DNA of 46,773 bases, taken from contig JAISJG010000002.1 in the NCBI GenBank assembly GCA_031261625.1, positions 1 through 46,773 of the forward strand, given 5' to 3'. Shown one piece after another: positions 14,031 through 43,779 of this stretch. How positions within the stretch are numbered: position 1 is the first letter of the stretch; every line of letters starts with the position of its first letter. Made by a program: the position numbers and the translations under genes. Origin of the DNA: Candidatus Methanoplasma sp. Its GTDB lineage: Archaea > Thermoplasmatota > Thermoplasmata > Methanomassiliicoccales > Methanomethylophilaceae. The notes under the pieces were generated by a model. It made no database searches and was not told the DNA's origin. It was given only the letters and a program-made list of their open reading frames with translations.

Positions 14031-15272
14031 ATGATAGTCGATGTGAAATACGGAAAGGACGGCGTTCAGAAGATCGATATTCCCGACAGCAACTACATCG
14101 GGACATTCTATCCCAAAGATGTTCAATGCGGTGATCCCGACGAGGTAATCAACAGGTCGATAGACGATCCCATAGGGTACGAATCGCTGGAAAGTTTCCT
14201 TGCCGGAGGTAAAGATATCGTGTTCATAGTCAACGACGGTACCCGTCCGACCCCGACCGCAAAGGTACTTCACGCACTTTCAAAGAGGATGGACCTGAGA
14301 AAAGCGAGGTACATCATCGCCACAGGTACGCACAGGGATATGACCCAAGAAGAGTACGATTTCGTATTCGGACAGCATTACGAAGAGCTGAAGGACCGCA
14401 TAATCTGTCATGACGCAAAGACATCGGAGTGCGTCAACCTCGGTACTTCCAAGAACGGAACCCCAATGGAGGTCAACAAAGTCGCGGTGGAGGCCGACCG
14501 TCTTGTGATAATCACAAGCGTGGAACCCCACTATTTCGCAGGATACACCGGAGGAAGAAAATCATTCCTTCCCGGAGTGGCATCGTTCAGGACGGTCGAA
14601 GCGAACCACAAGCTCGCCATGAGCAAAGCGGCACAGTCCCTGGCACTTAAGGGGAACCCGGTGCATGAGGATATGATGGATGCCCTCGAAGTGGTAAAAG
14701 GAAAGGAGATATTCTCCATACAGATGGTCTTGGACAGACACCAGAACATCTACAAAGCGGCATCCGGCAGCCTTAATCCGGCGTTCGACAGGGCCGTGGA
14801 ATGGGCGAACGAAGTGTTCTCCGTCCCGATCCCGGAAAAAGCGGACGTGGTGATATCGGTGGCCCCGTATCCTATGGACGTTGATCTGTACCAGTCGCAG
14901 AAGGCGTTGGACAACGGGAAATGGGCACTGAAAGAAGGCGGGAAGATAGTCATGGTCTCAAAATGCAGGGAAGGAATAGGACACGCTACATTCCTGACCC
15001 AGCTTTCGACTTCGAAAGATCCGAAACAGGTCCTCGAGAACCTGAAAGCGGAGTACAAGCTCGGATATCATAAGGCGGCCAAGATGGCCGAGATATCCAT
15101 ATGGGCGGACATCTGGGCGGTCACGGACCTCGACCCGGAGATAATAAGGTCGGCGAACATAACACCGTTCCCGTCGGTCGCAGATGCCGTCAAAGAAGCA
15201 CTAAGATTAAAACCGGACGCGAAATTCATCGTGCTGATGGACGGAAGCGTCACTATACCCAGGGTGGCATGA
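14031..15272 (+). CDS. larA: LarA-like nickel-pincer lactate racemase family protein
   Basis: 413 aa. LarA enzymes use a nickel-pincer nucleotide covalently bound to a lysine to racemise lactate or related 2-hydroxy acids. Seen: DGTRPTP (69-75), a histidine in ATGTHRDMT (His101), His167 and Lys177 in EPHYFAGYTGGRKSFLPG, and His193 in EANHK; these match the positions of the catalytic histidines and cofactor lysine of Lactobacillus LarA. The substrate may differ, since many homologues act on other acids. No larB, larC or larE cofactor genes are in the window. It is followed with no gap by an HdrD-like protein. Confidence 0.85.
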   Translation: MIVDVKYGKDGVQKIDIPDSNYIGTFYPKDVQCGDPDEVINRSIDDPIGYESLESFLAGGKDIVFIVNDGTRPTPTAKVLHALSKRMDLRKARYIIATGTHRDMTQEEYDFVFGQHYEELKDRIICHDAKTSECVNLGTSKNGTPMEVNKVAVEADRLVIITSVEPHYFAGYTGGRKSFLPGVASFRTVEANHKLAMSKAAQSLALKGNPVHEDMMDALEVVKGKEIFSIQMVLDRHQNIYKAASGSLNPAFDRAVEWANEVFSVPIPEKADVVISVAPYPMDVDLYQSQKALDNGKWALKEGGKIVMVSKCREGIGHATFLTQLSTSKDPKQVLENLKAEYKLGYHKAAKMAEISIWADIWAVTDLDPEIIRSANITPFPSVADAVKEALRLKPDAKFIVLMDGSVTIPRVA

Positions 15273-16373
15273 ATGAGCGAATTCAAAGCAGATAAGATCG
15301 AGAAGGTAAAGCAGGCACTCAACACATGTACCATGTGCGGGTTCTGCAAGAGCGTTTGCCCGTCGTTCAAATCGATAGGATGGGATTCCGCACTGTCGAG
15401 AGGACGCATTGTGCTCACATACGGATTGCTGAACGGAGATATCCAGGCGGACGATTCGGTCATCGAGAACATGTACACCTGCACAACATGTGCGGATTGT
15501 GTCAGAAGATGTCCGTCCAAAGTCGATATAGTGGACATTATCGAGATGTGCCGCGCGGATCTCGTAAAGAACGGTCACATGCTGCCGAAGCACAGGTCCA
15601 TGGCGGAAAGCGTGAAAAACTACGGCAACCCGTTCGGAGAGAAGATTCCGGCTGTGGACACCATAGGATTGAAACCCCACAAAGCGGAAGTAGGTTACTT
15701 CGCAGGATGTACGGCGACATACCGTGCAAAGAAGACATCCGCTGCCGCAATATCCATATTCAGGAAACTGGGAACCGATTTCACAACGCTCGACGAGGTG
15801 TGCTGCGGATCCGTTCTCCAGAGGGTCGGGGTAGATGAGGAAGAGGTCGTCAAACTGATGAAGAGGAACGTCGATGCCATCAAGGCATTGGGCGTCAAGA
15901 CACTGGTACTCTCATGCGCCGGATGCTACAGGATGTTCAAAATGGAATATCCCAAATTCGTGGATGTTCCCTTCGAGGTTCTTCATATAACCGAGTTCCT
16001 TGCGAAACAGGACCTCAAACTCACACCGTTGGAAGGAAAGATCACATATCACGACCCGTGCCACTTGGGAAGACACTGCGGAGTGTACGAACCCCCGAGA
16101 GAGGTCATAAAGAAATTCCCCGGAGCGGAGCTGAAGGAGATGAGCTTCAACCGTTCGACCAGCCACTGCTGCGGAGGCGGCGGAGGAGTGAGGGCGGCAT
16201 TCCCGGAGGAAGCCAGAGATATAGCATCCACAAGGCTCGATGAAGCGGCTTTCGCGGACACGATCATAACGACTTGTCCGTTCTGTGTCACCAACCTCGA
16301 TGCATCGAAAGGCGACAGGAAGATCAAAGTGGTCGACCTCACCGAATTGGTGGACGACCATCTGATAGCATGA
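15273..16373 (+). CDS. HdrD/GlcF-like iron-sulfur protein with two CCG domains
   Basis: 366 aa. N-terminal pair of [4Fe-4S] motifs CTMCGFCKSVCP (Cys19-29) and CTTCADCVRRCP (Cys70-80), then two complete cysteine-rich CCG domains (DEVCCGS...SCAGC and CHLGRHC...HCCGGGGG...TCPFC) of the kind that hold the catalytic noncubane clusters in heterodisulfide reductase HdrD and related subunits of lactate/glycolate oxidases. It starts directly after the larA-like stop, so a joint role in 2-hydroxy-acid oxidation or electron transfer is possible; it could instead be a true HdrD paralogue. No FAD-binding partner is adjacent. Confidence 0.85.
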   Translation: MSEFKADKIEKVKQALNTCTMCGFCKSVCPSFKSIGWDSALSRGRIVLTYGLLNGDIQADDSVIENMYTCTTCADCVRRCPSKVDIVDIIEMCRADLVKNGHMLPKHRSMAESVKNYGNPFGEKIPAVDTIGLKPHKAEVGYFAGCTATYRAKKTSAAAISIFRKLGTDFTTLDEVCCGSVLQRVGVDEEEVVKLMKRNVDAIKALGVKTLVLSCAGCYRMFKMEYPKFVDVPFEVLHITEFLAKQDLKLTPLEGKITYHDPCHLGRHCGVYEPPREVIKKFPGAELKEMSFNRSTSHCCGGGGGVRAAFPEEARDIASTRLDEAAFADTIITTCPFCVTNLDASKGDRKIKVVDLTELVDDHLIA

Positions 16374-18539: not shown

Positions 18540-18737
18540 TTACAGCAAGACCCCGACCGCACCTATGACGATGACGCTTACCACGGACAATACGACGAAA
18601 AGGATGTTCTTGTTCCTTTCCTGCTTCAGTTGGGCCTGATATGCATGATAGCATTCCATTTTGCAATACAACATGTCGAACGGCACCGGATCGCCGCAGA
18701 ACCGGCAGTGATCGTGTTCCGGAAGATTGGCAGGCAT
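18540..18737 (-). CDS. DUF2116-type zinc-ribbon membrane protein
   Basis: 65 aa. N-terminal half holds CRFCGDPVPF...YCKMECYHAY, a C2C2-type treble-clef-like zinc site; residues 42-64 form one transmembrane helix. Small archaeal proteins of this plan (DUF2116) are common and of unknown function. It is transcribed away from the ubiquitin-like operon and shares its upstream region, so a link is possible but not shown. Confidence 0.75.
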   Translation of the reverse strand: MPANLPEHDHCRFCGDPVPFDMLYCKMECYHAYQAQLKQERNKNILFVVLSVVSVIVIGAVGVLL

Positions 18738-18775: not shown

Positions 18776-18783
18776 TTTTATAT
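18776..18783 (+). promoter_or_regulatory. TATA box of the ubiquitin-like operon
   Basis: TTTTATAT lies about 25 nt upstream of the GTG at 18804, so the message would be leaderless and the GTG its first codon. No other promoter-like element is visible before the following three genes. Confidence 0.5.
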
Positions 18784-18803: not shown

Positions 18804-19562
18804 GTGAGGGTCAGGGAGTACGACAGGGATCGTTTCGACCGGATGAGGAGGATAGATTGGCTGGATGTCGAGCGCCTGCGCGGTTCGAGATGTCTGGTCG
18901 CAGGTGCCGGAGCATTAGGCAACGAGGCTGTGAAGAACATGGTCCTCGCCGGGTTCGGTGATATCACAGTAGTGGACATGGACACGGTGGCGATATCCAA
19001 TCTGAGCAGATGCGTATTCTTCAGGGACGGAGATGACGGACGCGGTAAATCGGACATTGTTGCTGAAAGGGCATCGGAACTCTATCCTGGGACGAAGATC
19101 ACGCCGGTCACATCGAAGGTCCAGGATATCAAGGACTGGGATTACGATGTTATTCTAGGTTGTATGGATAATATCTCGGCGAGACTCCATCTAAATTCCC
19201 ATGCGGTCTATTACAACGTTCCGTACATAGACGGGGCGACGGACGGGTTCAGGGGTAAAGTGCACGTTGTCCTTCCGGGAGGACCGTGCCTCGAATGCAC
19301 GATGAACAAAAGCCACATGAGCGTTTTGGATACAAGGTTCTCGTGCACCGGAGGCGGTACCGTATTCGTTCCTAAAGCGGCGTCCGAGATAACCACCACC
19401 TCGGTCGTAGCGGCGTTTCAGGTAAGGGAAGCTATGAAAATATTATCTGGTAGGAGTGACTTGTGCATCCGTAACGTAACATATTACAACGGAGAGAACG
19501 GGACTTCGGAGACCTTGGAATTGTCCGTGGACCCGAACTGTCCGAATCATGCGGGGAGATAA
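18804..19562 (+). CDS. E1-like ubiquitin-activating enzyme (ThiF/MoeB fold)
   Basis: 252 aa. It should adenylate the C-terminal glycine of the ubiquitin-like protein encoded next. Seen: nucleotide loop GAGALG (34-39), VVDMDTV with the ribose aspartate, NLSRCVFF (Asn66, Arg69), Lys82 of the GKSD segment, zinc pair CLEC (162-165) completed by CPNH (246-249), and candidate catalytic Cys181 in RFSCTGGG. It is shorter than eukaryotic E1s, with no Ubl-fold domain. ThiF/MoeB enzymes for thiamine or molybdopterin look similar, but the neighbouring E2 and JAMM genes point to protein conjugation. GTG start. Confidence 0.9.
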   Translation: MRVREYDRDRFDRMRRIDWLDVERLRGSRCLVAGAGALGNEAVKNMVLAGFGDITVVDMDTVAISNLSRCVFFRDGDDGRGKSDIVAERASELYPGTKITPVTSKVQDIKDWDYDVILGCMDNISARLHLNSHAVYYNVPYIDGATDGFRGKVHVVLPGGPCLECTMNKSHMSVLDTRFSCTGGGTVFVPKAASEITTTSVVAAFQVREAMKILSGRSDLCIRNVTYYNGENGTSETLELSVDPNCPNHAGR

Positions 19563-19567
19563 TCAGA

Positions 19568-19810
19568 ATGACGGTCAAGATAACAGTCGTGAACACGCTT
19601 AACAATTCATCCATCAGGATGGAGTTGGAGTCTTACGAGTCCGTTGAGGACATCATAGACACAGCAGCGGAATATTGGGGGAAGGATGCCGGAGCATATG
19701 TTCTCAGGAAAGGTTCCAGGCTTCTGAACAAAAGCCAGATCATCGAGGAGCTGAATCTCAACGATGACGATATCATCGAGATGATACCCGACCCGGAAGG
19801 CGGAAAATAA
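19568..19810 (+). CDS. Ubiquitin-like modifier precursor ending in GG-K
   Basis: 80 aa with a beta-grasp pattern: strand VKITVVNT, strand SIRMELES, helix ESVEDIIDTAAEYW, strand AYVLRKG, then RLLNKSQIIEELNLNDDDIIEMIPD, which is the ubiquitin-type 'delayed effect / thresholds' region. The C-terminus is DPEGGK: two glycines (78-79) followed by one lysine, so the tail must be trimmed by one residue before activation. The JAMM protease encoded two genes later is the obvious candidate. It starts 5 nt after the E1 stop. ThiS or MoaD would normally end in bare GG. Confidence 0.85.
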   Translation: MTVKITVVNTLNNSSIRMELESYESVEDIIDTAAEYWGKDAGAYVLRKGSRLLNKSQIIEELNLNDDDIIEMIPDPEGGK

Positions 19811-19811
19811 A

Positions 19812-20297
19812 ATGGGTCTTGTACGCCCCGTACTTATCAGGAGATTGAACAACGAGATCAAAGATCTCAACGATTATCTGCACTTGGGCATACCTTCGAT
19901 TCCAGCCGATGCGGAATTCCCGATAGAATTGCAGATAGGCCTCGGTAACACACCTGCGAAGATATCCAGGAACGAGACGGGGACGAAGCATATTTTCGCC
20001 TTGATAATATCATTGGAGTACCCGTACGAGAGGCCGAGGGCGAAATGGCTCACACCGATATTCCATCCCAACATAATGATGCCGGAGGACGGAGGATATG
20101 TCTGCGTCAAAACATTGGACAACTGGTCGTTCGGTTCGTCCCTGCTGTCATTCGTGAAAGGTGTGGAACAACTTATATCGGATCCCAATCCCAATAATCC
20201 GTACGGGACCGATTCATGTATGGAAGCAGCTAAATGGTACAGCAGCAACCGCCCCAAATTCGAGGCCAAGGTCAACTACGGTGGACGCAATGCCTAA
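19812..20297 (+). CDS. E2-like ubiquitin-conjugating enzyme
   Basis: 161 aa UBC fold. Seen: SLEYPYERPRAKWLTPIFHPNI, with the HPN motif at 85-87 whose asparagine supports isopeptide formation, then the catalytic cysteine Cys98 in GGYVCVKTLDNWS, and a C-terminal helix region (SFVKGVEQLISDPNPNNP) like the eukaryotic 'LxxxLxxPNPxxP' segment. The spacing from HPN to cysteine is close to that of eukaryotic E2s. It should carry the Ubl as a thioester after the E1. It begins 1 nt after the Ubl stop. No RING or other E3 gene is adjacent. Confidence 0.9.
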   Translation: MGLVRPVLIRRLNNEIKDLNDYLHLGIPSIPADAEFPIELQIGLGNTPAKISRNETGTKHIFALIISLEYPYERPRAKWLTPIFHPNIMMPEDGGYVCVKTLDNWSFGSSLLSFVKGVEQLISDPNPNNPYGTDSCMEAAKWYSSNRPKFEAKVNYGGRNA

Positions 20298-20796
20298 GGT
20301 CCTTTCATCCGAAGTCAAAGAAACAGAATTCCGTCCCAGATCCGTGAAGGGATCCGGATTATTCGTTTCCGAGGGCGCTCTAAACAGTATGATCGAACAC
20401 GCGGACCGCGGTGCGGAAGTTAGGAAAGAGATCATGGGGTTCATGATGGGCACGGTTTTCAAAGACGATGAAGGCGAATATGCCGTGGTAACGGATATCG
20501 CGACAGGTGATCTAGAAGCGGATGAGGTCAGTGTCAGGTTCGATACGGGTTCCATGGAAAGTCTTTTCGAGTCCATAGATGCGCGTGGCGGGAACGATAT
20601 AGTCGGATGGTACCACTCGCATCCGGGATTCGGATGTTATCTTTCGGAGATCGACATCAAAACGCACGAAGGTATATTCGGCAACGATACGGGATTCGCT
20701 TTGGTGATAGATCCGGATCAGAAGATAATAATGGTGTTCGATTGCCACGATCACGTCCCCGGTAACGTGGCGATGATACTGATGGAATCGGAATGA
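20290..20796 (+). CDS. JAMM/MPN+ deubiquitinase-like metalloprotease (Rpn11-like)
   Basis: 168 aa. Complete JAMM zinc site: Glu47 in EIMGFMMG, then GWYHSHPGFGCYLSEID with His109, His111, Ser119 and Asp122. The active-site stretch is strikingly like proteasomal Rpn11. Expected to remove the last lysine of the Ubl precursor and to release it from targets. The ATG at 20290 overlaps the E2 stop by 8 nt, so the protein is made together with the E2. The gene ends next to the converging hexuloisomerase. Confidence 0.9.
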   Translation: MPKVLSSEVKETEFRPRSVKGSGLFVSEGALNSMIEHADRGAEVRKEIMGFMMGTVFKDDEGEYAVVTDIATGDLEADEVSVRFDTGSMESLFESIDARGGNDIVGWYHSHPGFGCYLSEIDIKTHEGIFGNDTGFALVIDPDQKIIMVFDCHDHVPGNVAMILMESE

Positions 20797-21336
20797 TCAT
20801 ACCCAAATGGCATGATTATTGCGCATATCCTTCTCGCTTATGCCCATTCTTTTCATAAGTTCGGGGACTATACAATCGAAGAAGAACAATACAGTATCCT
20901 CGAAGATCGTTCCCAACGGTGCAAGCTTCGAGGTGAGTTCGTCCTTTTCCGAACGGATAAGGATGACGGTATCGGAGACATTGGCGAGTTTGCTTTTCGG
21001 AGTGGCCGTCACTGCGACCACATGCGATCCGATGCGCCTGGAGATCTCCGCTGTGGTGAAGACGGATATCGTGTTCCCAGTGTTGGATATCAGTATGGTG
21101 AGATCGTTCTTGCCGATGATCGGCGTGGTCATGTCTCCTACGAAGTAGACATGCAGTCCCATCTGCACCAAACGGACGGCGAAAAGCTGTCCTATGAGCC
21201 CGGACCTTCCGGAACCGTGAATGAAGATCCTGTCCTTGGACATTATCAATTCTATAAGGTTGTCCCAGTCCTTCTGGGGTATGGAGTACACTGCTTTTTT
21301 GCAGCTCTCCTTGAGATAATCCATTGTCTCTTTCAA
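20797..21336 (-). CDS. hxlB: 6-phospho-3-hexuloisomerase (SIS domain)
   Basis: 179 aa SIS-fold isomerase that interconverts 3-hexulose 6-phosphate and fructose 6-phosphate. Seen: FIHGSGRSGLIGQLFAVRL sugar-phosphate loop, LISNTGNTISV, and C-terminal EDTVLFFFDCIVPELM. In archaea lacking the oxidative pentose phosphate route, the enzyme works with hexulose-6-phosphate synthase in reverse to supply ribulose 5-phosphate. The synthase is not here. The start overlaps the end of the Nfo-like gene by 4 nt (ATGA), so both form one transcript. Confidence 0.9.
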   Translation of the reverse strand: MKETMDYLKESCKKAVYSIPQKDWDNLIELIMSKDRIFIHGSGRSGLIGQLFAVRLVQMGLHVYFVGDMTTPIIGKNDLTILISNTGNTISVFTTAEISRRIGSHVVAVTATPKSKLANVSDTVILIRSEKDELTSKLAPLGTIFEDTVLFFFDCIVPELMKRMGISEKDMRNNHAIWV

Positions 21337-22394
21337 GATGATTCCTCTTCCGTCGCTGCTGCCGCTGCAGCAGCGAGTTCGGATTTTCTCTTCTCTTTCA
21401 GTGCCTTCGCGACCCTTCTGCTGAGAACCCTCTCGTTGATGATCCTCATGTACATCGCGTCATGTTCCAGAAGCGGGGAGCTGGAGATTATCGTCGCTTC
21501 GGGCTTGAGGTCGCAGAGCGCCTCAGCCAGCGGTTCGAATTTGAGGTCGCCCTTCTTTATGGGTGTGAGCCTCTTCTCGTTGCCGTCGTTGTACTCCACA
21601 CCCGCGAACGATGTGTGGATGCTGCCTTTGCAGTACGGTTCTACCTGTTCCAGAAGTTCCAGGAAATCACTGGAATCGACGAGTCCACCGTCCGTGCGTG
21701 AGTGGAAGTGCGGGAAATTGACGACAGGCACGATACCTTCTACCTCATCACAGAGGTTCAGTATCTGTTCCAGCGATCCGAACACCGACTGGTTCCCGGT
21801 TATCTCGATACCCAGTCTTGGTTTGAGACCTGTGTCTTTCCACCAGTCCGCCAGTGCGATCACATTGTTCAGTATGTTGTCGTCTATCTCTTCTTCGAAA
21901 AGTCTTCCGGTGTAAAGTCCTAAGCTTGTAACGACAATGTCGCCCTTCAAGGCGTTGACGATGAGGCCGGCGTGCCTGATGCTGTTCATGCAGGAATCGG
22001 TAAGATCGTTGTTCGAGCCGAGGTCCATATAGTAAGGAGTGTGAAGGGAGACGTTGACGTCCAGTCTCTTGGCCATATCGCCCACTTCGTAGAGCTCTCC
22101 GAAATAATCGGTGACACCGGACGGCATGTAGATGAGTTCGTCCTCTTCTTCGATAGGTTCTTCGGGATCGACTATGGATTCCCCGTCCCTGATGATCTCG
22201 ACCACGAAATCATCGACTATGTCCTTTATGCCGGCCCCGACCTCTTCTTCGCTCGGGTATCTGACGAACGCTCCGGCTCTGACCATCTGTATCTCCAGCG
22301 CGGTCAGGCTCAGGTTGTGAACGTCTTCTATACCGTCTTTAAGTGTACGACCTTTACATGAAAGGGGTATTCCGGCAGGTCCGAATCTGATCAT
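21333..22394 (-). CDS. AP endonuclease family 2 / Nfo-like TIM-barrel protein
   Basis: 353 aa. Metal-site type motifs of the endonuclease IV/xylose isomerase-like barrel are visible: SLHTPYYMDLGS, LGIEITG, VPVVNFPHFHSRTDGG, SIHTSFAGVEY. Archaeal members are annotated as deoxyribonuclease IV-like; activity on abasic sites is not proved by this reading. The C-terminal 25 residues are a low-complexity tail rich in Ala, Lys and Glu. Start chosen at ATG 22394 (MIRFGPAGIP), which has GGTGA 9 nt upstream, rather than 9 codons earlier. Confidence 0.8.
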   Translation of the reverse strand: MIRFGPAGIPLSCKGRTLKDGIEDVHNLSLTALEIQMVRAGAFVRYPSEEEVGAGIKDIVDDFVVEIIRDGESIVDPEEPIEEEDELIYMPSGVTDYFGELYEVGDMAKRLDVNVSLHTPYYMDLGSNNDLTDSCMNSIRHAGLIVNALKGDIVVTSLGLYTGRLFEEEIDDNILNNVIALADWWKDTGLKPRLGIEITGNQSVFGSLEQILNLCDEVEGIVPVVNFPHFHSRTDGGLVDSSDFLELLEQVEPYCKGSIHTSFAGVEYNDGNEKRLTPIKKGDLKFEPLAEALCDLKPEATIISSSPLLEHDAMYMRIINERVLSRRVAKALKEKRKSELAAAAAAATEEESS

Positions 22395-22494
22395 AACGTC
22401 ACCAAGTAAAACCCTAAGCAACGGATTACTATTAAACTTAATTGCGAGCGGCCGCGGGAATTAGCTTTAAATCCTCACATTCCGTTGCACATAA

Positions 22495-22731: not shown

Positions 22732-23094
22732 ATGAGTGAAAGCTTCAAAACAAACCCCGCGCTTGTTGCCTTGATCGATGATCTTAAGGCAAAAACGAGG
22801 GAAAACGGGGCTGCCATCTGGCGAGACATCGCGCTTAGGCTTGAGAAACCAAGAAGGAACTGGGCCGAAGCGAACCTTAGCAAACTCGAGAGATATGCAA
22901 AGGACGGGGAGACGATAGTCGTCCCCGGAAAAGTCCTCGCAGCAGGCAGCGTCAGCAAGAAATTGACAGTCGCAGCATACAGCTTTTCGGATGCCGCAGC
23001 AGCAGGAATCGTTGCAGCGGGCGGAAAGACAATTACGATCGCAGAGCTCGTGGAATCGAATCCCAAGGGCTCGAACGTCAGGATACTGAGGTGA
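22732..23094 (+). CDS. rpl18e: Large ribosomal subunit protein L18e
   Basis: 120 aa, archaeal/eukaryotic-specific protein of the 50S subunit (eL18). Seen: KTNPALVALIDDLK near the N-terminus, IWRDIALRLEKPRRNWAEANLSKLERY, and VVPGKVLAAGSVSKKLTVAAYSFS. It leads the conserved archaeal cluster L18e-L13-S9-RpoN, with 5 nt to L13. In many archaea rpoD precedes it; here it does not. Confidence 0.97.
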   Translation: MSESFKTNPALVALIDDLKAKTRENGAAIWRDIALRLEKPRRNWAEANLSKLERYAKDGETIVVPGKVLAAGSVSKKLTVAAYSFSDAAAAGIVAAGGKTITIAELVESNPKGSNVRILR

Positions 23095-23099
23095 TTTGA

Positions 23100-23525
23100 A
23101 TGGTTACAGTTATTGACGGAAGGAACCTCGTGCACGGAAGGCTCGCAAGCGCCGTGGCAGAGCTCATACTGAGCGGAGAAGAGGTCATTGTGCTCAACTC
23201 GGAGTCCATTATAATCACAGGCCAGAAGGATGTCATCTTTGCGGACTTCAAAGCAAAGGTAGACCGCGGAGACGCGACCAAGAGAAAGGGACCCTTCTAC
23301 CCCCGCAGGGCGGATCTCCTCTTCAAGAGATGCGTCAGAGGAATGATCCCCTGGCAGTCTTCCACGGGAAGGGACGCTTACAGGAGACTCCATGTCTTCG
23401 TCGGAACACCGCAGCAGTTCGAGGATGCCGAGAAAGTCAGGCCCGCGGACGCAGTAAGAGAGATTACCGGTAAATACACCACCCTGGGAGCCGTTTCAAA
23501 ATTCCTGGGATCCAACGTGAGATGA
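23100..23525 (+). CDS. rpl13: Large ribosomal subunit protein L13
   Basis: 141 aa, universal uL13 of the 50S subunit. Seen: VIDGRNLVHGRLASAVAELILSG, the KGPFYPRRADLLFKRCVRGMIPW segment and HVFVGTPQQF. Archaeal-length version. Preceded by a GGTGATTTGA ribosome site and followed after 4 nt by S9. Confidence 0.97.
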   Translation: MVTVIDGRNLVHGRLASAVAELILSGEEVIVLNSESIIITGQKDVIFADFKAKVDRGDATKRKGPFYPRRADLLFKRCVRGMIPWQSSTGRDAYRRLHVFVGTPQQFEDAEKVRPADAVREITGKYTTLGAVSKFLGSNVR

Positions 23526-23529
23526 TCTC

Positions 23530-23928
23530 ATGGACATAGTAAACACAAGTGGAAAGAGGAAGTCCGCGATCGCAAGGGCGGTCGTCAGGGAAGGAACCGG
23601 TAAGGTCACGATCAACAAGATCCCCCTTGACATATACAGCCCCGAACTCGCCAAGCTCAAGATCGAGGAACCACTCGGACTCGTGCCCGAGAAGGCATCG
23701 AAGGTCGATATAGCCGTTCTGGTCAACGGCGGAGGAGTCATGGGACAGGCCGCGGCCGCCAGGACAGCCATCGCCAAAGGCCTTGTGGACTTCTACAAGG
23801 ACGAGGAGCTCGAAGCCCTCTTCAGAGCCTACGACAGGACGCTCATAGTCAACGATGACAGAAGAAAACTTCCGAAGAACCCGCTCGGACACGGTGCCAG
23901 AGCGAAGAAACAGAAGTCGTATCGTTAA
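23530..23928 (+). CDS. rps9: Small ribosomal subunit protein S9
   Basis: 132 aa, universal uS9 of the 30S subunit. Seen: NTSGKRKSAIARAVVREGTGKVTIN and the basic C-terminal tail LGHGARAKKQKSYR, whose final SYR reaches the tRNA anticodon region in the P site. Third gene of the cluster, 9 nt before rpoN. Confidence 0.97.
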   Translation: MDIVNTSGKRKSAIARAVVREGTGKVTINKIPLDIYSPELAKLKIEEPLGLVPEKASKVDIAVLVNGGGVMGQAAAARTAIAKGLVDFYKDEELEALFRAYDRTLIVNDDRRKLPKNPLGHGARAKKQKSYR

Positions 23929-23937
23929 GGTGATATC

Positions 23938-24129
23938 ATGATAATACCGGTGAGATGTTTCACATGCGGGAAAGTGGTGGGCAGCGCCTACCCCGAGTAC
24001 GCCAAGCGTGTGGCGACTGGAGATGACCCGAAAAAGGTCCTCGACGAGCTGGGATTCGAAAGGTACTGCTGCCGCAGGATGATCGTTTCCCACGCAGACC
24101 TCATCGGCGAGATAGCGCCTCTCGGCTGA
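23938..24129 (+). CDS. rpoN: DNA-directed RNA polymerase subunit N
   Basis: 63 aa subunit (homologue of eukaryotic Rpb10). Seen: zinc-binding CFTCGK near the N-terminus and [15 protein letters not shown] near the C-terminus, the hallmark CX2C...CC pattern. Last protein gene of the cluster; rpoK, which often follows, is not present and a tRNA gene follows instead. Confidence 0.97.
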
Positions 24130-24708: not shown

Positions 24709-25770
24709 TCAGAAATAATCGCCGAGGCCTATCTGTTCCATCCAGTATTTGAGATACGTAATCTTCTCGTACGTCACCCAAGTGCGGACGGTCATTCCGT
24801 TGATAAGAGGAACATTATTTCCTTTCGAATCCGTCATATGATCGGAATCGAATTCTATGACAATACGGAAGAAGACCGAACCGTTCTGGATGACTGCGTC
24901 ACTGGAGATGCTTTTGATCGTTCCTTCGGATGAACCGTACTCGGTCTGTGCGAGGCCGTCGACGGTGAAACGGCATTCCTGTCCGATGTCAAGTTTCGAT
25001 CTGTCCGCGGACGTGATATAGGCTTCGATGATCTTTCTGTTATCCTGGCCGCTTACGCTGCCTATCTGCGTTCCCGCTTGGATCACCATGCCGGATGTGA
25101 TCACACCATCGAAATGAAGTGTTCCCGAGCCCAGAGCTTTTATTTCATATCTTGAAAGTGCCGCGATGTATCTTGTGATCTCGCTTTCCGTAGCATCAAG
25201 AGTCGATGAAGAAGTGTTCTTGTCCTTTATGAGTACGGCCTGGGCCTGGAACTTCACGTTGTCCAGTCCTTCGGTGGATGATCCGTATACGCTCCGGTCG
25301 AGAATGTACTGCTGGAACATGACGTAGAATTCGGCCTGGTCTCCGGAATTGACGAACGGCTGTCTCGGAGACAGTGAAGAACCGATCTTCTCCAGGAACA
25401 GATCGATATTCTTTATGCGCTCGGAAAGAGTGTCCTTCTGCTTGCTTAGTTTGGACAGTTCGATATCTATGTCGGCGGTATCGAATTTCAGTATGATTGA
25501 ATCCGACGATACGGCTTCGCCTTCGGAAAAATATAATGCGGACACAGTCCCTGTTACTTCGGATACGACCGCGTGACGGTCCTCCGTGATGATAATGCCA
25601 TTGGTTTGGATATTCTCGGAATGGATCGCGGTAGCGCTCCAGAATATCACTCCGATCAGGATCACAATGACTATTGCGGTGAATATGTATGCGAACTTCG
25701 GAGGATTCCGCATGTACAGCAGACGGCTGTCGCTCAGCCGTTTGAGATCATATTCGCCGAATTTGCTCAA
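24709..25770 (-). CDS. HlyD-like membrane fusion/accessory protein of the C39 exporter
   Basis: 353 aa: short cytoplasmic N-terminus, one transmembrane helix (about residues 26-50), then biotinyl-lipoyl-like half-motifs (AVVSEVTGTVSALYFSEGEAV and later GSGTLHFDGVITSGMVIQAG), with a coiled-coil hairpin between (about 95-205) and a beta-barrel C-terminus. Such adaptors work with C39-peptidase ABC exporters to secrete bacteriocins. Start taken as TTG 25770, which overlaps the upstream stop (TTGA); the frame is open further 5' but that part is inside the other gene. Last gene of the export operon. Confidence 0.85.
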   Translation of the reverse strand: MSKFGEYDLKRLSDSRLLYMRNPPKFAYIFTAIVIVILIGVIFWSATAIHSENIQTNGIIITEDRHAVVSEVTGTVSALYFSEGEAVSSDSIILKFDTADIDIELSKLSKQKDTLSERIKNIDLFLEKIGSSLSPRQPFVNSGDQAEFYVMFQQYILDRSVYGSSTEGLDNVKFQAQAVLIKDKNTSSSTLDATESEITRYIAALSRYEIKALGSGTLHFDGVITSGMVIQAGTQIGSVSGQDNRKIIEAYITSADRSKLDIGQECRFTVDGLAQTEYGSSEGTIKSISSDAVIQNGSVFFRIVIEFDSDHMTDSKGNNVPLINGMTVRTWVTYEKITYLKYWMEQIGLGDYF

Positions 25771-26246
25771 GGGACCGTCTCCGCGAACACGTCTGCAATA
25801 AGTTCGTTCTCTGTCTGTTCTATGAAGACGGTGTATGTCTCGTTTTTCAGAGTTATTCCGTTTTCGAAAGCGTACACCTGAAGTTTGCCGTGAGCCATCT
25901 GGATTAAACGCGGATCCCCGCGGTATCTTGCGAGAAGGCAATTTTCTATTCTTACCAGTTCATCGAAAGCATACGGTGGATCTGTCTTTTCCGGAATTTC
26001 TCTCAATTGGGCCAATAACCTGCTTTTATTACTGAGGGTTCCGTGTTCCACATGTGATCTGGAATGTATTATCATCGGGCCGTACGGAGTGAGGTTCTTG
26101 GATTTTGTGTAGGAATCGAACATGACGAATACTTTCTGTATTTCTCCGCTGTCCTGAGAGGACAGATCCCTGGAGAGGACGTTCTTAAGCTTCAGCACCT
26201 TGTTTTCGACAATCTCTATCTGTTTACCCGTACTCAATTTCATCAT
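25767..26246 (-). CDS. GyrI-like small-molecule-binding protein in the export operon
   Basis: About 159 aa, soluble. The pattern TPYGPMIIHSR, a central RIENCLLARYRGDPRLIQMAHGKL and C-terminal LKNETYTVFIEQ... suggests the GyrI/SOUL-like effector-binding fold found in BmrR, Rob and GyrI, which binds hydrophobic drugs. This is a weak family call by eye. It overlaps the exporter gene by 23 bp. The exact start is open: ATG 26246 or 26243, or TTG 26237, which has a GAGG 9 nt upstream. Roles as a peptide chaperone, self-protection factor or ligand sensor are conceivable. Confidence 0.55.
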   Translation of the reverse strand: MMKLSTGKQIEIVENKVLKLKNVLSRDLSSQDSGEIQKVFVMFDSYTKSKNLTPYGPMIIHSRSHVEHGTLSNKSRLLAQLREIPEKTDPPYAFDELVRIENCLLARYRGDPRLIQMAHGKLQVYAFENGITLKNETYTVFIEQTENELIADVFAETVP

Positions 26247-28488
26247 CCTCGCTGTTCTTCTCTTCTTTTTCGGTATGTCTTTCCGACTTCGCGGCATCCG
26301 TTGCGGGATATCCGGGAACCGGGCCAACTTGACTGTTCCACATCTCCGCGTACGCTCCGGCTTTCGATAACAGTTCGTCGTGTGTTCCTGATTCGACTAT
26401 TTTTCCGTTGTCCATGACATAGATAGTATCGCATCTGCGTATGGTGCTGAGGCGGTGGGCGATTATCATTATGGTCGTGTCTTTCAGTTTGTTGAATATC
26501 GTATCGTAGACCAATTGTTCTGTAATGAAATCCATGTTGGATGTCGCTTCGTCCAGGATGATGAAACTCGGTTGTTTTATCAGAGCCCTTGCAAGCGCGA
26601 TGCGTTGTTTCTCTCCTCCGGAAAGTCCTCCGCCGTCCTCGTCAAGGAATGTGTTGTAACCTGCGGGAAGTTTTCTTACGAATTCATCACATCCTGCGCG
26701 TCTTCCTGCGAGATCCACATCGCTCGGAGTCGCATCGGGGTTTCCGATCACTATGTTATCGCTCACGGAACCGCTGAACAACTCCACGTTCTGGGGGACA
26801 CAGCCGATCTCCGTTCTCAGTGCGAATGCATCGATGTCTTTGATGTTGATGCCGTTCAGAAGCACGCTGCCTTCTTCCGGCGTGTAGAATTTGAGAAGTA
26901 TCTTCGACAGAGTAGTCTTACCGCTGCCGGACCTGCCGACGATCGCTACTTTGTTTCCTTGCGGTATTTTTATCGACACGTTCTTTAGAGTGAGCGGTCT
27001 CGAACCGTATCTGAATGAAATGTTCTCGATGTCGACATCCTGAATACCGTTCGATATGATCGAGACGTCCTTGCCTTTCTCGGTGTCTTCTTCCTCATCG
27101 ACATCGTATATCTCCGCTAAGCGCCTCAATGATATGTTCGCTTCCTGAATGCTCAGCTGTAATCCTACCAAACGGTTTATCGGGTCGATGAAGAATCCTG
27201 CCAACGACATGAATGCCACCAGCGTACCGAGCGTGGTCGAGCCGGATATGACCATGAATCCGCCGATCACAAGCAGTCCTATGTTCCCGAGTCCTCCGAC
27301 GAAAGAGGATGCCGATGTCTGAATGTTGGACAGCACGCCGCCTTCGAATGCTATCTTCAGTGCTTTGATGTATTCGGTCTCTATTTTCTCCATCACGCGC
27401 TCTTCCGAAGAATTTGTTTTTACGGTTTCGATCCCGTTGAGACTTTCAATAATCTGGGAGTTCAGTCTTGCGCCCTGCTCCATCGATCTCTTGTTGAGTT
27501 TTCTGTAAGGTCTTCTGAACAGGAATATAAGAACGGCGCTTACTATCGCCAATGCAACCACTATCGCGAACAGCCGGACGTTCATGGAATACAGAACGAC
27601 GCTGACGATCGAGATCATGGCGACGTCGATCATGACTGTAAGTGCGGTGTTGGTGAGAACGCTTTTCACCACTCCCGCATCCTGGAATCTTGTGACGATG
27701 TCCCCGGTCTTTCTGGATGCAAAGAAGTTCATCGGCAGACGGAACACATGGCCGAAGTATCCCAATACCAGCGGTATGTCTATTTTCTGGGATATGTACA
27801 GGACAACATGTTGCCTCAGAGCACCGAGTACCGTCTGTGTCAGTACTACCAGAACCAGGACAACAGCGAACATCGTAAGTTGTTTGTCAAGATTGTACGG
27901 GATTATCTCGTCAATGAGTATCCGGTTGAACATCGACATCACGACGCCGAATACCGTCAGTATCACGGATACGGCAATTGCCACAGCGAACATTTTCCAA
28001 TGCGGTTTGATCAGAGATATGAAACTTGAGAATACGTTCATGTTTCCGTCTTTGCTCAGAGTGAAATTATCATTCGGGAGCATCAGGATAAGGATCCCCT
28101 CGAAATCCTCGAAGAATTCAGATACCTTCTTTTTCTGTATCTTGCTTTCTGCGGGATCCATGTAAACAAGGGTTTCTTTTTTGCCGTTCACCTTGTAGAT
28201 GACAACGAAATGTGTAGTTCCGTCCTTCTTTACCAATCTGGCGATCGCGGGGGTTGTGAAACCAGTGAGGAAGGCATCCTTATCGACGCGGACCGCTTTT
28301 GCTTCGAATCCTAATTTGGGAAGGGCTTCGACGATTCCCTTTACCGTAGTGCCAGTAATATCTGTACCGAGAAGTTCGCGCAGTTTTACGATGGTGAGCT
28401 CATGTCCGTAATGCATACATATGCTTGCAACGCATGCGGCACCGCAATCCGACGAATCATGCTGTTCGATATGCGGATATCTCTTCAC
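26224..28488 (-). CDS. C39 peptidase-containing ABC exporter (PCAT)
   Basis: 754 aa from GTG 28488. Order: C39 cysteine protease (residues 1-130; oxyanion Gln9, catalytic Cys15 in DSSDCGAAC, His93 in TTHFVV, Asp111 in YMDPA), six-helix membrane domain (about 155-450), nucleotide-binding domain with Walker A GRSGSGKTT (near 519), signature LSGGEKQRIALARAL (near 622) and Walker B FIILDEATSNMD (near 644). It should cut leaders after a double-glycine-type site and export the core peptide. The ORF is open to 28566, but homology begins at KRYPHIEQ and a TATA element lies within that stretch, so I take the leaderless GTG. Confidence 0.93.
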   Translation of the reverse strand: MKRYPHIEQHDSSDCGAACVASICMHYGHELTIVKLRELLGTDITGTTVKGIVEALPKLGFEAKAVRVDKDAFLTGFTTPAIARLVKKDGTTHFVVIYKVNGKKETLVYMDPAESKIQKKKVSEFFEDFEGILILMLPNDNFTLSKDGNMNVFSSFISLIKPHWKMFAVAIAVSVILTVFGVVMSMFNRILIDEIIPYNLDKQLTMFAVVLVLVVLTQTVLGALRQHVVLYISQKIDIPLVLGYFGHVFRLPMNFFASRKTGDIVTRFQDAGVVKSVLTNTALTVMIDVAMISIVSVVLYSMNVRLFAIVVALAIVSAVLIFLFRRPYRKLNKRSMEQGARLNSQIIESLNGIETVKTNSSEERVMEKIETEYIKALKIAFEGGVLSNIQTSASSFVGGLGNIGLLVIGGFMVISGSTTLGTLVAFMSLAGFFIDPINRLVGLQLSIQEANISLRRLAEIYDVDEEEDTEKGKDVSIISNGIQDVDIENISFRYGSRPLTLKNVSIKIPQGNKVAIVGRSGSGKTTLSKILLKFYTPEEGSVLLNGINIKDIDAFALRTEIGCVPQNVELFSGSVSDNIVIGNPDATPSDVDLAGRRAGCDEFVRKLPAGYNTFLDEDGGGLSGGEKQRIALARALIKQPSFIILDEATSNMDFITEQLVYDTIFNKLKDTTIMIIAHRLSTIRRCDTIYVMDNGKIVESGTHDELLSKAGAYAEMWNSQVGPVPGYPATDAAKSERHTEKEEKNSEDDEIEYG

Positions 28489-28662
28489 GAACCTTGTATG
28501 TTCAGATATATATATATATGTCGGTATCGATATATACTCAACCTTAGGAATAGGGGGAGAGTACAAAAAATGTCATTTGCAAACGCATATGGAAATGAGA
28601 TCAGAATGCCTGCAAGGTATGTTGATCTGTCAGCAGAGGAAATGGAATACGAAGGTGGCTGG
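28301..28662. repeat. Repeat unit A (exporter 5' end, promoter, precursor leader)
   Basis: Intact master copy: the 5' part of the exporter on the minus strand, the divergent promoter and the first 31 codons of a precursor on the plus strand. The same block recurs at 29261-29610 and 30346-30616. Confidence 0.8.
28505..28523. promoter_or_regulatory. Divergent TATA region of exporter and first precursor
   Basis: A run of alternating AT (ATATATATATATATG) reads as a TATA box on both strands. Leftward it sits about 25 nt from GTG 28488 of the exporter; rightward it aligns with TTTATATG of the two other precursor promoters. A second AT element (GATATATAC) follows at 28529-28537. Confidence 0.5.
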
Positions 28663-28854
28663 AGCCTTAAGGGCCTTGTAGCTTCAGTAGTGTCCTGTGT
28701 TGTTACCGGAGTCATAGCAGCAGGAATTGTGGTCTTGGCAGTAGGTACTGGGGGCGTAGCTGTACCCGTATATATCGCAGCAGGCGGTTTGATCGGGGGA
28801 GGCCTAGGATCAGTTAGTTATGCAACGTATGAATTTGTTAATAATCTCCTTTGA
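28570..28854 (+). CDS. Bacteriocin-like precursor peptide 1
   Basis: 94 aa. Leader of about 30 residues (starts MSFANAYGNEIRMPARYVDL) ends LSAEEMEYEGG, a double-glycine type site near the LSxxELxxIxGG consensus. The core begins WSLKGLVASVV and is hydrophobic and glycine-rich, with one cysteine, GxxxG-type motifs (AAGGLIGGGLG) and an amphipathic end (YATYEFVNNLL). Transcribed divergently from the C39 exporter that should process it. A GGGGGAGAG ribosome site lies upstream. The identity as an antimicrobial is inferred from leader, core and context. Confidence 0.8.
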   Translation: MSFANAYGNEIRMPARYVDLSAEEMEYEGGWSLKGLVASVVSCVVTGVIAAGIVVLAVGTGGVAVPVYIAAGGLIGGGLGSVSYATYEFVNNLL

Positions 28855-28863
28855 GGGCTGTTG

Positions 28864-28983
28864 ATGGAAGAATTTCTTTTCTTTATTCTAGGATTAGTTA
28901 TGGGTGGAATCACTGCATTGGTTTCGGTTGCATCTATGATTATAATCACAAAAAGGACAGAGAAAAAAAAGTCAAAAGATTGA
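28864..28983 (+). CDS. 39-aa membrane peptide after precursor 1
   Basis: MEEFLFFILGLVMGG..., one transmembrane helix (about residues 4-28) and a strongly basic tail (TKRTEKKKSKD). It starts 9 nt after the precursor stop. Size and position are those of bacteriocin immunity proteins, and similar tiny membrane genes follow the two other precursors. No sequence match is claimed. Confidence 0.55.
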   Translation: MEEFLFFILGLVMGGITALVSVASMIIITKRTEKKKSKD

Positions 28984-29229
28984 TTAAATCATCGATTTTA
29001 TCATCTCCCGTTCAAATTAATCAGCCATTATATGTACAGTGGCCTAAACTATTTATCGGTGTAAAAATAGCGATCTAACTGAAATGTTGCAATCGGGAAA
29101 AAAACTCTTTCTGCAATATGCATCCCGCTAATGGTCGCTATTATTTAATCTCTCATTTTTTCAGCTATGAGGGCAATTGGTGGTTATTAAGGTGGGCTGG
29201 CCCATAAATTTACTTGCTAGATGGTTTGA

Positions 29230-29435
29230 AAAAGTGTTTTTATCAATGTGGGTTGTCTGTGCTTCGAATCCTAATTTGGGAAGGGCTTCGACGATACCTT
29301 TGACTGTAGTGCCAGCAATATTCGTACCCATAATTCGCACAGCTTCACTATCGTCAGTTCGCGACCGTAACGCATGCATATGCTTGCAACGCAATACGAC
29401 GAATCACGCTGTTCGATGTGCGGATATCTCTTCAC
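29230..29435 (-). pseudogene. Decayed C39 exporter 5' fragment (unit B)
   Basis: Reverse-strand remnant of the exporter 5' end. One frame reads VKRYPHIEQRDSSYCVASICMRYGREL (start GTG 29435); after a frameshift another reads GTTVKGIVEALPKLGFEAQ. A 12-nt deletion removes the DCGA segment with the catalytic cysteine, and homology stops near codon 72. It cannot make a protease. Confidence 0.85.
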
Positions 29436-29610
29436 ATTTATGTATATCAACACACATTTATATGTCAGTCATTGATATCTATTTAATCTTAGGAATAATG
29501 GGAAAGTACAGAAAATGTCATTTGCAAACGCATATGGAAATGAGATCAGAATGCCTGCGAGGTATGTTGATCTGTCGGCAGAGGAAATGGAATACGATGG
29601 GGGCGGGTGG
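29261..29610. repeat. Repeat unit B
   Basis: Second copy of the block containing exporter 5' fragment, promoter and precursor leader. It begins with the same GCTTCGAATCCTAATTTGGG as unit A and carries the 12-nt deletion also present in unit C. Confidence 0.8.
29457..29464 (+). promoter_or_regulatory. TATA box of precursor 2
   Basis: TTTATATG, 51 nt before the start codon; the predicted start near 29488 leaves a leader of about 27 nt. The same element, in the same sequence context, precedes precursor 3. Confidence 0.5.
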
Positions 29611-29790
29611 CTTTCTGGAATAGGTACAGCACTATCATCCATCGGTTCCGTAGTTGCAGGCATTGCCGGAGCAATAGCCGTTAGTGGTGGCGTGACCACT
29701 GTCGCCGCAGTACTCGTAGGAATAGGATCTGTAGGGTGGATAGCATTAGGCGCAATTGCAGTGGGCTGTGTGCTTATTGCACTCGACTGA
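29515..29790 (+). CDS. Bacteriocin-like precursor peptide 2
   Basis: 91 aa. The leader matches precursor 1 through LSAEEMEY, then DGGG before W. The core (WLSGIGTALSSIGSVVAGIAG onwards) is unrelated to core 1 except in style: about 60 residues, nearly uncharged, very rich in Gly/Ala/Val/Ile with many GxxxG spacings, one cysteine near the end. With cleavage before W the leader fits the LSxxELxxIxGG spacing exactly. Its own exporter copy is decayed, so it must depend on the intact exporter at 26224-28488. Confidence 0.8.
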   Translation: MSFANAYGNEIRMPARYVDLSAEEMEYDGGGWLSGIGTALSSIGSVVAGIAGAIAVSGGVTTVAAVLVGIGSVGWIALGAIAVGCVLIALD

Positions 29791-29797
29791 GGCTGTC

Positions 29798-29974
29798 ATG
29801 TCCAAAGTAGCCCTTTCATTATACGTTTTCCTTGTTGGCGCCTTAGGATTTATCATCGGATACGTCAATGGGTTCGGCATTGTCGTCGCATTGTACATAA
29901 TAATTGCGACATTTACGGGAATAGTGATTGGGGTCAGGTACTCAAAAAAACACGGCGTCTCCAAGACTTATTAA
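29798..29974 (+). CDS. 58-aa two-helix membrane protein after precursor 2
   Basis: MSKVALSLYVFLVGALGFII..., two transmembrane helices (about residues 4-22 and 26-46) and a basic tail (RYSKKHGVSKTY). It starts 7 nt after the precursor stop, so it is translated from the same message. Candidate dedicated immunity protein. Confidence 0.6.
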   Translation: MSKVALSLYVFLVGALGFIIGYVNGFGIVVALYIIIATFTGIVIGVRYSKKHGVSKTY

Positions 29975-30089
29975 ATTTTACGCACGATTGACTTCGTGCG
30001 GTTTTTTACTCCACAATAATATGCGCTGATTAACGCTTCTCTTGTCGTAATGTTCTTTCCAACGCGGAGCGTGACTTTTCTCTGTCCCG

Positions 30090-30296
30090 TCAACCATCTC
30101 CATAACAGGGGGCGCGGATCGCTTTTTTCACGATTCCGCAGAAAAGTACGCTCTTTATTTTCATTCTGTTTATTTTCGGCCTCAACTCCGTAAATAGGGA
30201 TGTAAGGAATCCAAGCTTGACGTCCAGATCCGTCAATTTCTTCGAGACCTCATAATCCATCATACCGTCATCGGTCTTTACTGCATACGATTTCAA
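30090..30296 (-). pseudogene. Open reading remnant of unknown origin
   Basis: Up to 68 codons read MKSYAVKTDDGMMDYEVSKK... from a TTG directly after an in-frame stop. The preceding frame continues the C39 remnant of unit C, so this may be the tail of another broken gene joined to it. Helical, charged, no recognised domain. 29975-30297 contains nothing else that I can support. Confidence 0.3.
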
Positions 30297-30440
30297 TTAT
30301 TCCGTGAGTACGTAGGCCACGGAAGATCTGCCAAGAAATTCGTGTAGCTTCACTATCGTCAGTTCGCGTCCGTAACGCATGCATATGCTTGCAACGCAAT
30401 ACGACGAATCACGCTGTTCAATGTGCGGAGATCTCTTCAC
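30297..30440 (-). pseudogene. Decayed C39 exporter 5' fragment (unit C)
   Basis: 47-codon remnant reading VKRSPHIEQRDSSYCVASICM... and ending LHEFLGRSSVAYVLTE-stop. It has the same 12-nt deletion over the catalytic cysteine as unit B, and joins unrelated sequence earlier than unit B does. The shared deletion shows that B and C descend from one already damaged copy. Confidence 0.8.
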
Positions 30441-30616
30441 ATTTATGTGTATCAACACACATTTATATGTTCAGTCATAGATATCTATTAAATCTTAGGA
30501 ATAAAGGGAAAGTACAAAAAATGTCATTTGCAAACGCATATGGAAATGAGATCAGAATGCCGGCAAAGTATGTTGATCTGTCAGCAAAGGAAATGGAATA
30601 TGATGGGCAGGGCTGG
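30346..30616. repeat. Repeat unit C
   Basis: Third copy of the block, shortened on the exporter side. From AGCTTCACTATCGTCAG onward it is close to unit B up to the leader end of precursor 3. Confidence 0.8.
30462..30469 (+). promoter_or_regulatory. TATA box of precursor 3
   Basis: TTTATATG, 52 nt before the start codon, in the same sequence setting as the promoter of precursor 2. Confidence 0.5.
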
Positions 30617-30781
30617 TTCGGTGCGATATCTGCTGTGATTATACCTGTAGCCGGAGCGCTAATCACAGGAGTTGCCGCGGTGACAATTGCAGCTGCGATA
30701 TCAAATCCAATTGGACTTGCCGCAGTGGGATCACTTGTTGTAATCGGTGCAGTAACTGGATACTGTGCACTTCCCATATGA
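30521..30781 (+). CDS. Bacteriocin-like precursor peptide 3
   Basis: 86 aa. The leader is the same except R15K and E23K, and ends EYDGQG before W: the double glycine has become Gln-Gly, so cleavage may be slower or shifted. The core (WFGAISAVIIPVAGALITG onwards) has no charged side chain at all, is rich in Ala/Val/Ile/Gly and has one cysteine near the C-terminus (GYCALPI). Same promoter arrangement as precursor 2. Function as an antimicrobial is inferred. Confidence 0.78.
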   Translation: MSFANAYGNEIRMPAKYVDLSAKEMEYDGQGWFGAISAVIIPVAGALITGVAAVTIAAAISNPIGLAAVGSLVVIGAVTGYCALPI

Positions 30782-30793
30782 AGAGGAAACCGG

Positions 30794-30970
30794 ATGACTT
30801 TAAAAAGAGCCCTAGAAATAGTAATATCAACATTGGCTATAATAGTGATCTTCTCGGTGATCGTCATATTTGGGCAATGGCCTGAAGCAATATCACTTCT
30901 GATGGTCTTGATATTAGGTTTTATCGGGGCTGTACTTTTTGGGCCAAAGTTAAAAAGTAAACAGTTTTAA
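30794..30970 (+). CDS. 58-aa two-helix membrane protein after precursor 3
   Basis: MTLKRALEIVISTLAIIVIF..., two transmembrane helices (about residues 8-27 and 32-50), short loop and basic tail (PKLKSKQF). It starts 12 nt after the precursor stop. Same length and layout as the protein after precursor 2 but different sequence, as expected for immunity proteins matched to different peptides. Confidence 0.6.
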   Translation: MTLKRALEIVISTLAIIVIFSVIVIFGQWPEAISLLMVLILGFIGAVLFGPKLKSKQF

Positions 30971-34612: not shown

Positions 34613-34692
34613 TTAATTGAAAGTGGGCCATCTAATAATATTGCGGGGCGTTGCTACGAACATGTCGGAACTGCAAAGGACATCTGGTATTT

Positions 34693-37586: not shown

Positions 37587-37595
37587 GGTGAGAAA

Positions 37596-41133: not shown

Positions 41134-41143
41134 GGTGTGAAGA

Positions 41144-43678: not shown

Positions 43679-43779
43679 CATTTCAAACTCTTTTCATCAT
43701 TCTTTTTTCCAAAACATCATTATTCAAGTGAGATCATCAATGCGCAAGTTACTTAACACCAATTCTGGATTATTATTGT

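Follow-up and report, generated by a model that had tools for sequence, protein, structure and literature searches.

What does a complete E1-Ubl-E2-JAMM gene set do in a methanogen, and which protein would serve as its targeting enzyme (E3)? The question is raised by a stretch of 46,773 nucleotides from Candidatus Methanoplasma sp. (contig JAISJG010000002.1; the window in what follows), in which the initial annotation had seen a ubiquitin-like conjugation operon with no RING E3 adjacent and had left three options: an E2 acting alone, an E3 encoded elsewhere, or a defence-like role as in the bacterial Bil operons.

A four-gene operon at a fixed chromosomal site

The four genes lie on the forward strand, separated by gaps of 5 and 1 nt and an 8-nt overlap; the operon is genuine and its genes had been read correctly at the outset. 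The first gene (18804..19562) encodes an E1-like activating enzyme of the ThiF/MoeB fold with a GAGALG loop, a zinc site (C162/C165/C246/H249) and a candidate catalytic C181; its 252-aa sequence stops after the zinc site, ThiF is its only Pfam domain, and the Pfam search found no C-terminal UBL (UFD) domain in it. The second (19568..19810) encodes the precursor of a ubiquitin-like modifier (Ubl), a single beta-grasp domain of 80 aa which, as in a ubiquitin-type cascade, carries a C-terminal GG; its tail reads PDPEGG-K, with K80 as the extra residue. Structure prediction of the Ubl, which the initial annotation had proposed as a check, gave a model with the ubiquitin fold, and the 60 listed PDB matches of the Ubl profile are ubiquitin-type proteins and designed variants. 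The third gene (19812..20297) encodes an E2 whose UBC fold is judged from a sequence profile (Pfam UQ_con, 4e-14); H85, P86, N87, the catalytic C98 and W105 are kept in 80/80 sequences and P71 in 71/80, and loop 7 reads WSF. The last (20290..20796) encodes an Rpn11-like JAMM, a putative isopeptidase and Ubl maturase, which is intact, with E, H, H, P, S and D at the expected positions (E47, H109, H111, S119, D122 for the E-HxH-S-D signature). A predicted TATA-like stretch, TTTTATAT (18776..18783, forward strand), lies 21-28 nt upstream of the E1 start, as read from the sequence, and the operon has a GC content (0.49 to 0.51) similar to that of the flanking DNA.

A protein search with the E2 yielded 200 relatives, and among the best 120 of 200 the named ones are records of Methanomassiliicoccales, Thermoplasmatales or Euryarchaeota. 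A further scan, across genome contigs, brought up 131 relatives, from which the best 80 of 131 were retained as loci; together with the window, 66/81 loci carry E1-Ubl-E2-JAMM on one strand, which bears out both the co-occurrence of the four genes in related genomes and the claim that a methanogen lineage carries such an operon. Five of the 15 incomplete loci are cut by a contig end, one is without a JAMM, and nine (L041, L054, L063, L065, L069, L072, L073, L074 and L076) show Ubl-E2-JAMM with no E1 alongside, so that the E1 may be unlinked in those lineages. The genome of L041 (G031) has two E2 genes of the operon family.

The surroundings of the operon are conserved as well. In a tblastn search with the window proteins against the best 80 of 131 loci, a SIS-domain protein (20797..21336, reverse strand) was found in 70/80 and a TIM-barrel protein of the AP_endonuc_2 family (21333..22421, reverse strand) in 63/80. 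Four genes further downstream (22732..24129, forward strand), which we take to be L18e, L13, S9 and RpoN, were found in 53, 51, 49 and 44 of 80, and two upstream genes (14031..16373, forward strand), presumably encoding LarA-like and Fe-S proteins, in 27 and 28 of 80; all these counts are lower bounds because contig ends truncate many of the loci. From SIS to RpoN, the median distances across loci are near those of the window. In an E1+E2 tree built from 42 loci, 20 splits are supported, of which 16 are common to a TIM+L13+S9 tree and 0 are in supported conflict (both quick trees); since TIM, L13 and S9 are linked to the operon, this agreement shows that the block was inherited as one. No E2 relative was found in the plasmids, phages and viral contigs searched. 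The operon thus has a fixed place on the chromosome of Methanomassiliicoccales and of other Thermoplasmatota, beside the SIS, TIM-barrel and L18e-L13-S9-RpoN genes, and it is carried by a group of methanogens from guts and sediments. The E2 is present in 67/201 genomes drawn from the class, in 61/96 genomes (completeness at least 85%) of the order of genome G026, which is probably Methanomassiliicoccales, and in 8/25 genomes of a second order, that of G001.

Elsewhere in the window, positions 24712-30970 hold a bacteriocin-type locus in this methanogen: an HlyD adapter (24712-25941), a C39-peptidase ABC exporter above the TIGR01193 cut-off (26224-28566) and a tandem of three small ORFs (28570-28854, 29515-29790, 30521-30781) with the common leader MSFANAYGNEIRMPARYVDLSAEEMEY, which has two changes in the third ORF and is continued by GG or something close to it. 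Each leader ORF is followed by a hydrophobic ORF of 40-72 aa, and repeats of 50-161 nt recur in the locus at a spacing of about 1 kb. Membrane and electron-transfer subunits resembling those of complex I or hydrogenases are encoded in an operon at 34651-41902, likely that of an energy-converting hydrogenase, and two proteins with GLUG and Listeria-Bacteroides repeats (42497-44787) are probably surface proteins.

A RING-like protein encoded beside psmA

By Pfam domains, no RING was found within the operon or among its conserved neighbours, either in the window genes or in the best 80 of 131 loci, in line with the absence of an adjacent E3 noted at first. The small treble-clef protein encoded divergently from E1 (DUF2116, 42 bits; 18540..18737, reverse strand) is not a RING and accompanies only 16/80 of these loci. 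We searched six operon-bearing genomes with zf-RING_2; five gave a match, which in three was to a 172-aa family encoded directly upstream of pop5-psmA. A profile of this family matched 73 of the 96 genomes at E 0.001. Twelve of these (11 E2-less genomes and G099) matched through the zinc ribbons only (query 91-169) and were dropped from the RING count, and in 61/96 genomes the match spans the RING, the weakest retained being 1.0e-8.

E2 and RING are both present in 60 of the 96 genomes and both absent from 34, with one genome carrying the E2 only (G099) and one the RING only (G106), an association with a Fisher p of 1e-23 before any correction for kinship. G099 is without psmA and G106 without L13, so that in both exceptions the assembly does not include the locus where the absent gene would be expected. 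The Pfam model zf-RING_2 at E 0.01 gives the same picture, matching 54/61 genomes with E2 against 1/35 without, the one being G106. RING and psmA share a contig in 57 genomes, always on the same strand and at most 2.6 kb apart in 55 of them (6.1 kb in G033, 16 kb in G068); they are on different contigs in three genomes, and G035 is without psmA. In part of the order ftsZ lies between or beside the two. Where the RING is gone from E2-less genomes the Pop5-psmA pair is kept, together with ftsZ in G038 and G040, and in 28/34 genomes without E2 and RING the assembly extends 1.5 kb or more upstream of Pop5. The genome from which the window comes probably has a psmA-side RING as well.

The family reads as a RING-like finger followed by zinc ribbons. 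The RING-region ligands C61, C64, C76, H83, C86, C93 and C96 are invariant in 25/25 aligned members (C78 is not), zinc-ribbon cysteines lie C-terminal to them, and the pattern C-x2-C ... C ... H-x2-C ... C-x2-C occurs in 56/56 RING members of the psmA regions. The best solved matches of the profile are RING E3 ligases, namely RNF165 (E 2.8e-7), Arkadia, RLIM and RNF4. The structure model (pLDDT 86 overall, 93 to 98 in the RING part) has a helix at 6-41, and in Foldseek most of the 50 matches shown were RING or U-box E3s, many with a probability near 1; the best had E 0.0085, and none reached E 0.001. In 40/56 RINGs the N-terminus has a hydrophobic segment (mean over 19 residues at least 1.6), with 16/56 below 1.6, which suggests a membrane anchor in most species. 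Where the 60 database relatives are named, the name is "hypothetical protein".

The same data bear on a rival account, in which conjugation of the Ubl is the work of the E2 by itself, or of an E3 that has escaped recognition, and the RING-zinc-ribbon protein happens to adjoin psmA/ftsZ, is unrelated to the system and has gone from the same lineages by general gene loss. It can draw on the low Pfam scores of the RING, which exceed the cut-off in 7/96 genomes only, and on the order of G001, where the link between RING and E2 is mixed: RING-like zinc-finger proteins occur in 25/25 genomes and the E2 in 8, so that a finger of this kind does not by itself indicate a ubiquitin system. In that order the closest relatives of the RING (>100 bits, adjoining ftsZ) belong to G005-G008, E2 being absent from G008, and five genomes with E2 (G001, G022-G025) have weaker RING-like matches only (61-68 bits). 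Against general gene loss stands the pattern of change within the order of G026. On a PsmA+Pop5 tree (IQ-TREE, 94 genomes, 59/91 branches supported) E2 and RING need eight changes each, and of eight independent pairs seven are supported; RING follows E2 in 7/7 of the latter (p 0.0156), and in 5/5 on a quick tree by the same pair test (p 0.0625). G077, G083, G091 and G106 (L13 not assembled) and G035 and G099 (psmA not assembled) were left out of the tree test. Among ten variable families around psmA, the RING has a phi of 0.89 with E2 and the nine others do not track it (next best |phi| 0.32), a rough control because gene calling was crude (longest-frame) and some families resemble wrong-frame readings. 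Moreover, the two loci are unlinked, the E2 lying by L13 and the RING by psmA. We therefore regard the RING-less account as unlikely, while giving it more weight than any other rival. The separate zinc-finger protein by the proteasome gene, lost with the cascade, appears to be the missing targeting enzyme; its co-loss with E2 makes it a candidate E3. Of the three options left by the initial annotation, that of an E3 encoded elsewhere has the strongest support, from co-occurrence and joint loss of the RING, and the defence-like role is not supported.

In the order of G001 many RING-like proteins are encoded per genome, with or without E2. Four of its loci (L266-L269) encode very long proteins (frames >1200 aa) with a RING-like zinc finger near the end, and in the one protein read at L093 the finger comes after a transmembrane stretch.

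Decay of the cascade and a proposed processing of the modifier

The genomes without E2 show what becomes of the other parts. In 26/35 of them the old operon site lies on a single contig, flanked by LarA/Fe-S genes and, at the opposite end, by SIS or TIM. A Ubl-profile match is kept in 24/35, or 25/35 with G088 added by local search, and the PDPxGG end is found in 0/25 of these remnants compared with 80/80 operon Ubls; GG is lost where E2 is lost. Five E2-less genomes (G051, G055-G058) have E1 remnants, in which N66 is changed in all five, D60 and K82 in four each and C181 is lost in four, the zinc site being kept in five; the residue list behind them also includes three genomes with E2 (G099, G059, G053). 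Furthermore, in the 21 weak JAMM matches of E2-less genomes (E up to 0.01) both metal-binding histidines are missing throughout. The conjugation parts thus decay together, and these recurrent natural losses serve as knock-outs indicating which parts function together. The TIM-barrel (21333-22421) and SIS (20797-21336) genes stay by the site in most E2-less genomes examined.

Within operons, the JAMM is related to the tail of the Ubl. Both genes are present in 79 operon loci. Of their Ubls, 44 have 1 to 15 residues past GG and the JAMM is intact in 44/44, the six JAMMs that have lost catalytic residues (L014, L021, L060, L066, G053, G059) are paired with a Ubl ending at GG in 6/6, and 29 intact JAMMs are also paired with such a Ubl (Fisher p 0.0058); the six are not independent and stem from few lineages, L021 (= G054), G053 and G059 belonging to one clade, L014 being a Candidatus Methanoplasma, and L060 and L066 not being placed on the tree. 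The count left out L012 (no Ubl on the contig) and L050, L051 and L079 (no JAMM found), dropped G099 as the same contig as L033, and took L022 (E column X) as intact.

Taken as a whole, these observations are best explained, with a probability of roughly two in three, by a ubiquitin-type conjugation cascade with a housekeeping role in the lineage. The JAMM would remove the residue after GG (K80 in the window) and reverse conjugation; the MoeB-like E1 would adenylate Ubl-GG and hand the Ubl, probably via C181, to C98 of the E2; the RING from the second locus upstream of psmA, membrane-anchored in most species, would act as E3, contacting the E2 and steering the Ubl to its substrates; and the tagged substrates would most likely be fed to the proteasome. 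More tentatively, we put forward the further-reaching possibility that Methanomassiliicoccales have a complete ubiquitin-proteasome pathway whose RING E3, membrane-anchored in most species, belongs to the proteasome alpha gene cluster apart from the operon, that about 7-8 parallel collapses each took E2 and RING, and that a GG-less Ubl was often retained for another, non-conjugating use. Within the literature searched, we met no earlier account of the unlinked RING or of the parallel collapses.

The Ubl tail also tells how conjugates can be detected. The window Ubl has no Lys or Arg after K55 and before GG, so trypsin would leave a remnant of 24 residues and Glu-C would leave GG; the proposal to look for diglycine remnants by proteomics holds with Glu-C in place of trypsin. 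A cascade in a methanogen order with cultures, together with a trans-encoded RING by a proteasome gene, makes the role of archaeal ubiquitin in the living cell testable.

Relation to known conjugation systems

A Bil-like or other anti-virus conjugation system is very improbable. It would share the four activities of the Bil operons, the PADLOC E1-E2 models match its E1 (52 bits at best), as BilD does weakly (20 bits), and the PADLOC JAB model matches its JAMM (24 bits); but the Ubl is single-domain, PADLOC gives no match for Ubl or E2, the site is fixed by ribosomal genes, the E1+E2 tree agrees with that of the neighbours in the manner given above, and no mobile E2 relatives were seen in the plasmids, phages or viral contigs searched, for which reasons the defence reading was rejected. 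Equally remote is a sulfur-carrier or SAMP/Urm1-type system, with E1 and Ubl serving tRNA or cofactor thiolation and E2 and JAMM as accessories: the E1 does resemble MoeB/ThiF and UbaA, the Ubl weakly resembles MoaD (E 0.022) and the JAMM matches the desampylase model (38 of 130 bits), yet the E1 falls far under the cut-offs of UbaA (NF047750, 89 of 450 bits) and MoeB (101 of 266), the Ubl profile is of ubiquitin type and the E2 active site is invariant. With the SAMP/UbaA system of haloarchaea the operon has in common an archaeal MoeB-like E1 and a JAMM desampylase, but its proteins stay below the NCBIfam cut-offs for both models, and its E1 does not classify as UbaA-type. Haloarchaeal SAMP conjugation is not known to require an E2.

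That E2 and JAMM come closest to eukaryotic proteins stands as a PDB ranking rather than a tree, since the PDB has few archaeal homologs: the E2 profile is best matched by UBE2B (RAD6; 56 bits), the JAMM by yeast Rpn11 (59 bits), CSN5 (50) and CsRpn11 (40), and the E1, ranked with the same reservation, by yeast Uba1 (99 bits) and MoeB (82). As for novelty, the suggestion that the operon may be undescribed holds in part. The E2 is already named in public databases, and Fuchs 2018 (PMC6043591) describes, in an accessible text that does not name the taxa, Rpn11-closer JAMMs in E3-less operons with Ub, E1 and E2 homologs, with C. subterraneum and Asgard archaea adding RINGs. In the text available, James 2017 (PMC5654768) reports the full cascade in Caldiarchaeum and clusters I-III, and discusses complete cascades mainly for Aigarchaeota and Asgard as a route to eukaryotic ubiquitin; Grau-Bove 2015 (PMC4327156) mentions a marine group II euryarchaeote beside Crenarchaeota and Aigarchaeota. 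Among the titles and abstracts that the literature searches listed, none concerned the operon in Methanomassiliicoccales, and the word ubiquitin is absent from the main text of Borrel 2014 on Methanomassiliicoccales genomes (PMC4153887), according to which the order has an isolate and enrichment cultures. The finding is of interest since it points to a complete pathway of ubiquitin type in archaea other than the closest relatives of eukaryotes.

Among described systems, the bacterial Bil operons, in the available text of PMC11354881, likewise unite Ubl, E1, E2 and JAMM, but they combine a two-domain ISG15-like BilA with Bil-type E1, E2 and DUB, whereas the methanogen system has an 80-aa one-domain Ubl, a BilD score of 20 bits only, a candidate RING partner, a fixed chromosomal site and no sign of defence. 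Closer are the archaeal JAMM-3 / Ub-E1-E2 operons of Fuchs 2018, where, judging by the accessible text, a JAMM lies by Ub, E1 and E2 homologs with no E3 in the operon; they are likened here by description rather than by cluster placement, and differ in that the methanogen system has an E3 candidate in trans. With the Caldiarchaeum subterraneum operon, as the available texts (PMC5654768, PMC6043591) present it, the system shares a pro-Ubl with residues after GG, an E1, an E2 with HPN, a catalytic Cys and the loop residues P71 (71/80) and W105 (80/80), an Rpn11-like JAMM and a RING-like protein. In contrast to it, the methanogen E1 is MoeB-sized and without the C-terminal UBL domain of archaeal E1 (PMC5654768), loop 7 of the E2 reads WSF and not WSP, the JAMM sits inside the operon, the RING is absent from the operon and encoded separately, next to psmA, carries zinc ribbons and has a hydrophobic N-terminus in most species, and the present lineage is Thermoplasmatota.
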